Assembly: GCA_945881865.1 (NCBI GenBank)
Contig: CAMCVK010000006.1
Span: 1-64,000, forward strand
Source of the DNA: Fimbriimonas ginsengisoli Gsoil 348
Lineage (GTDB): Bacteria; Armatimonadota; Fimbriimonadia; Fimbriimonadales; Fimbriimonadaceae
Direction of reading: 5' to 3'
Length of the DNA stretch: 64,000 nucleotides
The notes under the pieces are model-generated. The model was not told the DNA's origin. It was given only the letters and a program-made list of their open reading frames with translations, and searched no databases. A program made the translations under genes and the position numbers. Each line of letters begins with the position of its first letter. Position 1 is the stretch's first letter. Of this stretch, positions 33,749 to 33,968 are shown in pieces.

Positions 33749-33910
33749 CCCATCTGTCGTGGATGGGCGAGCAATCGATTGGGGAAAGCCGGTGAGAAGC
33801 CGGCGCTGTGCCGCAACGGTAAGAATTTCGATTCGAGTCCGAATGCCCAACTCTGAAGCAACGAAAGAAGCTGTCGCCTACGAGCATAGGTGCGGAGCCA
33901 GGGCCCATCG
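33749..33910 (+). promoter_or_regulatory. Cobalamin riboswitch (class-II-like short aptamer), upstream of pseudopilin
   Basis: GGGGAAAGCCGGTGAGAAGCCGGCGCTGTGCCGCAACGGTAAG...GAGTCCGAATGCCC matches conserved cobalamin aptamer core (GGGAA..GGUG.AA.., GC.ACGGU.., .CCGAAUGCC); outer helix GATGGGC(33762-33768)/GCCCATC(33903-33909). Confidence 0.8.
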
Positions 33911-33968
33911 TCGGACCCTTGTCCGTCAATTTGCCTCCGATTCGATAGCCTCGCGCATGTGAGGTGAA

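Follow-up and report, generated by a model that had tools for sequence, protein, structure and literature searches.

We find that a prepilin gene in a Fimbriimonadaceae genome lies directly behind a cobalamin riboswitch, and that this pairing recurs across the phylum Armatimonadota, where genes for B12 binding and B12 transport often belong to the same operon. We propose that a functional riboswitch represses a dedicated, phylum-wide pilin and that this pilin acts in B12 acquisition, a reading to which we assign a probability of roughly 70%; Armatimonadota with the pair would then probably collect B12 with a special pilin. Known roles of pilins are adhesion, motility, secretion and DNA uptake. 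Searches of the open-access literature (titles and abstracts) returned no paper linking a cobalamin riboswitch to a pilin, prepilin, DUF1559 protein or pseudopilin, and we found no open-access paper that gives a pilin a vitamin-uptake role. Neither the class of riboswitch nor that of pilin is new; what appear to be new are their dedicated pairing and the likely B12-uptake role.

A cobalamin riboswitch in the leader of a prepilin gene

The locus lies in a 64,000-nt stretch of genomic DNA (the window; Table 1). An initial annotation had read a cobalamin riboswitch in the leader of a pseudopilin gene, and cmscan searches bear this out: RF01689 (AdoCbl-II) scored 37.6 bits, above its gathering score of 36.5 (E = 2.6e-05), and RF00174 matched at 33729-33868 with 33.6 bits against a cut-off of 31.5 (E = 9.7e-07 for the genome). 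The scores are modest, and with both models the margin above the gathering score in this genome is only 1-2 bits. The leader riboswitch is nevertheless real: a chance match is excluded because the riboswitch occupies the same position in dozens of relatives and its P13 hairpin covaries, and conservation of the riboswitch-pilin pair throughout the phylum likewise rules it out. In this genome (98% complete) the searches detected no second cobalamin riboswitch. Control of another gene was also considered and rejected, as the gene downstream is encoded on the other strand and the amidase gene upstream ends short of the aptamer core.

Table 1. Features of the riboswitch-pilin locus, in window coordinates
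Feature	Position	Strand	Basis
TATAAT, candidate -10 element of the leader's own promoter	33732..33737	+	sequence
Hairpin CCCATC-TGTCGTG-GATGGG just 5′ of the aptamer core	33749..33767	+	sequence reading and minimum-energy fold
Cobalamin (AdoCbl-II type) riboswitch aptamer	33766..33856	+	RF01689 and RF00174 above cut-offs
P13-type hairpin with invariant A-CGAGCA-U, presumed L5 kissing partner	33875..33892	+	covariation in relatives
CCTCGC-GCAT-GTGAGG hairpin masking the Shine-Dalgarno, proposed expression platform	33949..33964	+	fold prediction
Riboswitch-linked H-X9-DG prepilin, 256 aa	33969..34739	+	PF07963, PF07596, riboswitch-pilin profile and clade

The next gene had been described as an H-X9-DG pilin-like protein, a description that holds for the prepilin signal (PF07963, 35.4 versus 21.2 bits; TIGR02532, 31.8 versus 16.3 bits), for PF07596 (DUF1559; 32.9 bits against a cut-off of 23.3, covering the start of the model only) and for the literal H-X9-DG motif at residues 197-208, but not for the NCBI model TIGR04294 HX9DG, which scored 17.8 bits, just under its cut-off of 19 (one relative passes with 26.9 bits). 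The best named homologs come from Fimbriimonadaceae, phylum Armatimonadota. Comparisons with Pfam, PDB sequences and Foldseek gave no match to known B12-binding families (DUF4465, BtuF). The structure model is moderate (pLDDT 69) and returned weak pilin matches only, with no known B12-binding fold; ligand prediction from structure was accordingly set aside.

Leader architecture and proposed expression platform

Upstream of the aptamer core, 26 of 60 relatives have a TATAAT-like hexamer (≤1 mismatch), where shuffles predict 15.8, and 4 have a perfect TATAAT, where shuffles predict 0.9. In most of the relatives listed, the hexamer falls within ~7 nt of the RF00174 start, at a near-constant offset. 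Because the TATAAT sits just 5′ of the aptamer at this offset, transcription probably starts near 33745, upstream of the aptamer core; a two-hexamer promoter scan of the leader found no -35 element. The near-constant box also argues against a transcript start downstream of 33910, the outcome that the initial annotation had named as counting against a riboswitch.

The hairpin CGCCTA-CGAGCA-TAGGTG, which the initial annotation had read behind the aptamer core, is present. Across 32 distinct sequences from relatives, 91% of P13 stem cells are paired and 19 cells are changed on both sides, a level of covariation reached by none of 500 shuffles. The stem constitutes the actual test, since the sequences had been selected on the ACGAGCA motif that appears invariant in them. 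As to the presumed L5-L13 kissing interaction, L13 is invariant, but L5 (UGAGAAG) is no simple complement of CGAGCA; the kissing loop of env8HyCbl is likewise irregular (PMC10653944).

Closer to the gene, the GUGAG of the Shine-Dalgarno has a predicted unpaired probability of ≤0.04. Comparable hairpins occur in many relatives, the Shine-Dalgarno hairpin being only moderately enriched over shuffles: stems of at least 6 pairs are found in 31 of 58 relatives versus ~30% expected, a weak statistic for the family. No intrinsic terminator was found in the leader on the pilin strand, and terminator-based control was rejected accordingly. With no terminator and a Shine-Dalgarno predicted to be locked in a hairpin, the layout fits a translational OFF switch, both the direction of control and the coupling of aptamer to hairpin being inferred.

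The pairing is conserved within the family and across the phylum

RF00174 matched at E ≤ 0.001 in 63 of 85 family genomes, mostly once per genome, with some matches scoring below the gathering score. The pilin is the next same-direction gene after 60 of the 69 family cobalamin riboswitches, typically ~100 nt downstream, against a background of about 65 prepilin-signal genes in the own genome; in one more case (G014) the riboswitch precedes a pilin that the motif filter missed. A clade-wide search for the riboswitch-pseudopilin arrangement, one of the checks suggested at the outset, thus found it conserved in the family and in further families. Among the exceptions, the riboswitch stands before a BtuC-type permease (G019, G022), an apparent ribonucleotide reductase gene (G001), a BtuB-like receptor with cobalamin-type genes behind it (G048), or secreted partners without a pilin (G036); genes at these loci that lacked a profile hit were named by reading the sequence. 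The G048 locus lies on a short, 8.7-kb contig (L052, contig 41), where a strong cobalamin riboswitch (81.8 bits) precedes a TonB receptor and cobalamin-type genes; this differs from what is seen elsewhere in the family and possibly reflects contamination or transfer.

Family genomes without a riboswitch match are mostly without a strong pilin ortholog as well. Three have a strong match: in G007 and G035 a sub-threshold cobalamin riboswitch lies just upstream, and the G067 match covers the C-terminal part of the profile only. In a locus that holds a pilin gene of G065, we also observed a weak, sub-threshold match to c-di-GMP-I-GGC (L324:2627-2728, minus strand; 30.2 versus 59 bits).

Beyond the family, the pair recurs in more than a dozen further Armatimonadota families (f2, f10-f14, f19, f22, f27, f28, f32-f35, f38 and f42, in the loci sampled). 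A scan of named genomes, seeded on the generic pilin N terminus, returned mostly other phyla; its one informative locus was that of Armatimonadetes SKYB36 (L237), where an RF00174 match (79.3 bits) immediately precedes a pilin with 49% identity in its best segment. In the order-mate families f3, f4 and f5, the riboswitch precedes a secreted propeller-like protein instead of a pilin. Five loci of f3 and f4 (L202, L209, L210, L212, L216) show the riboswitch directly before such a protein; a PEP-CTERM was confirmed for the protein of L202 and read for that of L216. These f3/f4 proteins are possibly BtuG-like binders.

The linked pilins also form a lineage of their own. In the family tree they constitute one clade (57 riboswitch-linked versus 31 own-genome pilin rows; support 89/67; 88% of bootstrap trees), and in a wider-phylum tree all 41 sampled riboswitch-linked pilins group together against 28 other own-genome pilins (SH-aLRT 98), the control pilins in both trees coming from the one own genome, a limitation of these comparisons. 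Residues that mark the subfamily within the family, numbered as in the residue-comparison alignment, include W53 (95% of linked versus 0% of other pilins), F111 (86% versus 0%) and R217 (81% versus 0%). When the own genome was searched with the riboswitch-pilin profile, the gene in the window was the sole match at E ≤ 1e-15 (307 bits).

Genes for probable B12 use and import, and co-located binding proteins

The own genome encodes a cobalamin-dependent methionine synthase (MetH) module (L073) and one FecCD permease that scored closest to BtuC (C6:92689-93702). No riboswitch was found before this permease. In G019 and G022, the permease gene at the syntenic position stands behind a cobalamin riboswitch. 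The TonB plug domain PF07715 was not found in the own genome, with positive controls in three genomes including E. coli, and is likewise missing from most genomes of the family (64 of 85, a count that includes this one); the own genome therefore has no recognisable BtuB. Taken together, these genes suggest that it uses B12 and possesses an inner-membrane importer in the apparent absence of a recognisable BtuB. DUF4465 is absent as well. The remark that no B12 gene is visible nearby held for the part of the window examined (24-46 kb). There the pilin stands alone: no B12 protein adjoins it, and the gene that follows is encoded on the other strand. The BtuC-like permease lies beyond the window but on this contig, at 92.7-93.7 kb.

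Relatives place the pilin in more telling company. In G210 (L230), the series runs riboswitch, pilin, BtuF, BtuC. This BtuF matches PF01497 and is closest, among solved structures, to a vitamin B12-binding protein; the BtuC matches PF01032. DUF4465 occurs in only 6 of 85 family genomes, and in five of these it directly follows the riboswitch-pilin pair; at the locus of the sixth (G009), an AdoCbl-II-like match of 30.7 bits lies upstream. B12 binding has been demonstrated for eight divergent DUF4465 proteins (PMC13398666) and is of high affinity in BtuJ1 and BtuJ2, the members from Bacteroides (PMC12751083). Two secreted families, which we name GSG and ALGP after their motifs, each occur 15 times downstream of these switches, whereas the remainder of the same loci, serving as control, holds 0 and 1 matches, respectively; the sole ALGP control match is an ORF starting inside the G036 riboswitch. 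Several operon partners carry PEP-CTERM anchors.

A proposed role in B12 acquisition and its alternatives

In the model that we favor, sufficient cellular cobalamin would act through the riboswitch at 33749-33968 to repress translation of the pilin, and B12 starvation would lead to production of the dedicated subfamily. Most likely the pilin would be surface-displayed, surface-anchored or periplasmic, a location from which it might present or dock co-expressed B12-binding proteins or even, by conjecture, bind and capture B12 directly. From the pilin the vitamin could then pass on towards BtuF/BtuC, in cells lacking a recognisable TonB-dependent BtuB receptor. A more specific version, in which a starvation-induced pseudopilin binds cobamides at the surface, delivers them across the outer envelope and replaces BtuB in most of these Armatimonadota, is tentative and more doubtful than not. 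The initial annotation had foreseen either a new regulon member or a B12-related surface function; both parts are supported, the latter now narrowed to B12 capture or uptake, which is likelier than an unrelated surface function because the pilin of relatives shares operons with BtuF/BtuC and DUF4465.

Pilin-type proteins are the classical subunits of adhesion and motility, and the gene is often monocistronic, as it is here and in L039 and L054. The pilin might thus handle no B12 at all and, under starvation, drive sticking to or movement towards B12-producing partners, cells or surfaces. We consider this unlikely, since the pilin repeatedly shares operons with BtuF-BtuC, DUF4465 and further secreted proteins, and since one dedicated subfamily is extremely conserved. 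An indirect part in uptake is also conceivable: the prepilin signal resembles that of type II secretion pseudopilins and several partners bear PEP-CTERM anchors, as would suit a pseudopilus subunit aiding export or display of co-regulated PEP-CTERM B12-binding proteins. Most family genomes, the own genome included, have the pilin without a recognised partner adjoining, however, and we regard this explanation as rather improbable. The thin score margins in the own genome would agree with an ordinary riboswitch for which the pilin is merely the nearest gene, or with a decayed relic; the recurrence of the pair at 60 of 69 riboswitches in the family and in many further families, the covarying P13 and the near-constant placement of the -10-like box make this very improbable indeed.

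Several known systems are close to the one described here. Like other AdoCbl-II, or class II, cobalamin riboswitches (RF01689, clan CL00101), this one has an aptamer above the Rfam cut-off, a downstream P13 and apparently translational control. The M. tuberculosis ppe2 switch is also class II and controls a gene of uncertain function, which heads a cobalamin operon (PMC11260477); the target here, in contrast, is a prepilin-type protein, in a pairing conserved across a phylum. Other H-X9-DG/DUF1559 (PF07596) prepilins share the prepilin signal, a PF07596 score above cut-off and the literal motif, whereas the pilin described here is preceded by a cobalamin riboswitch and falls in a separate clade marked by conserved residues of its own. 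A further parallel is found in the BtuG/BtuH/BtuJ surface capture loci of Bacteroides, which likewise place secreted B12-capture proteins under riboswitch control (PMC12751083, PMC13398666). DUF4465 is common to both systems and follows the pilin in five relatives. Bacteroides loci, however, combine lipoproteins with a TonB-dependent BtuB, whereas the operon studied here is headed by a pilin and a TonB plug domain is missing from most genomes of the family. The B12 riboswitch regulon would thereby gain a new target class, the dedicated prepilin; a function would be anchored on one clade within a pilin family that is very large and uncharacterised; and a testable answer is raised to how bacteria without BtuB bring B12 across the outer membrane.

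Two further features of the surroundings were observed. Tandem prepilin-type genes at 38598-39497 and 39672-40577 are closely related to each other and have no riboswitch match. On the other side, an N-acetylmuramoyl-L-alanine amidase gene (33011-33736) ends just before the leader, and an amidase-like gene was read at the same upstream place in G008, G020 and G022.
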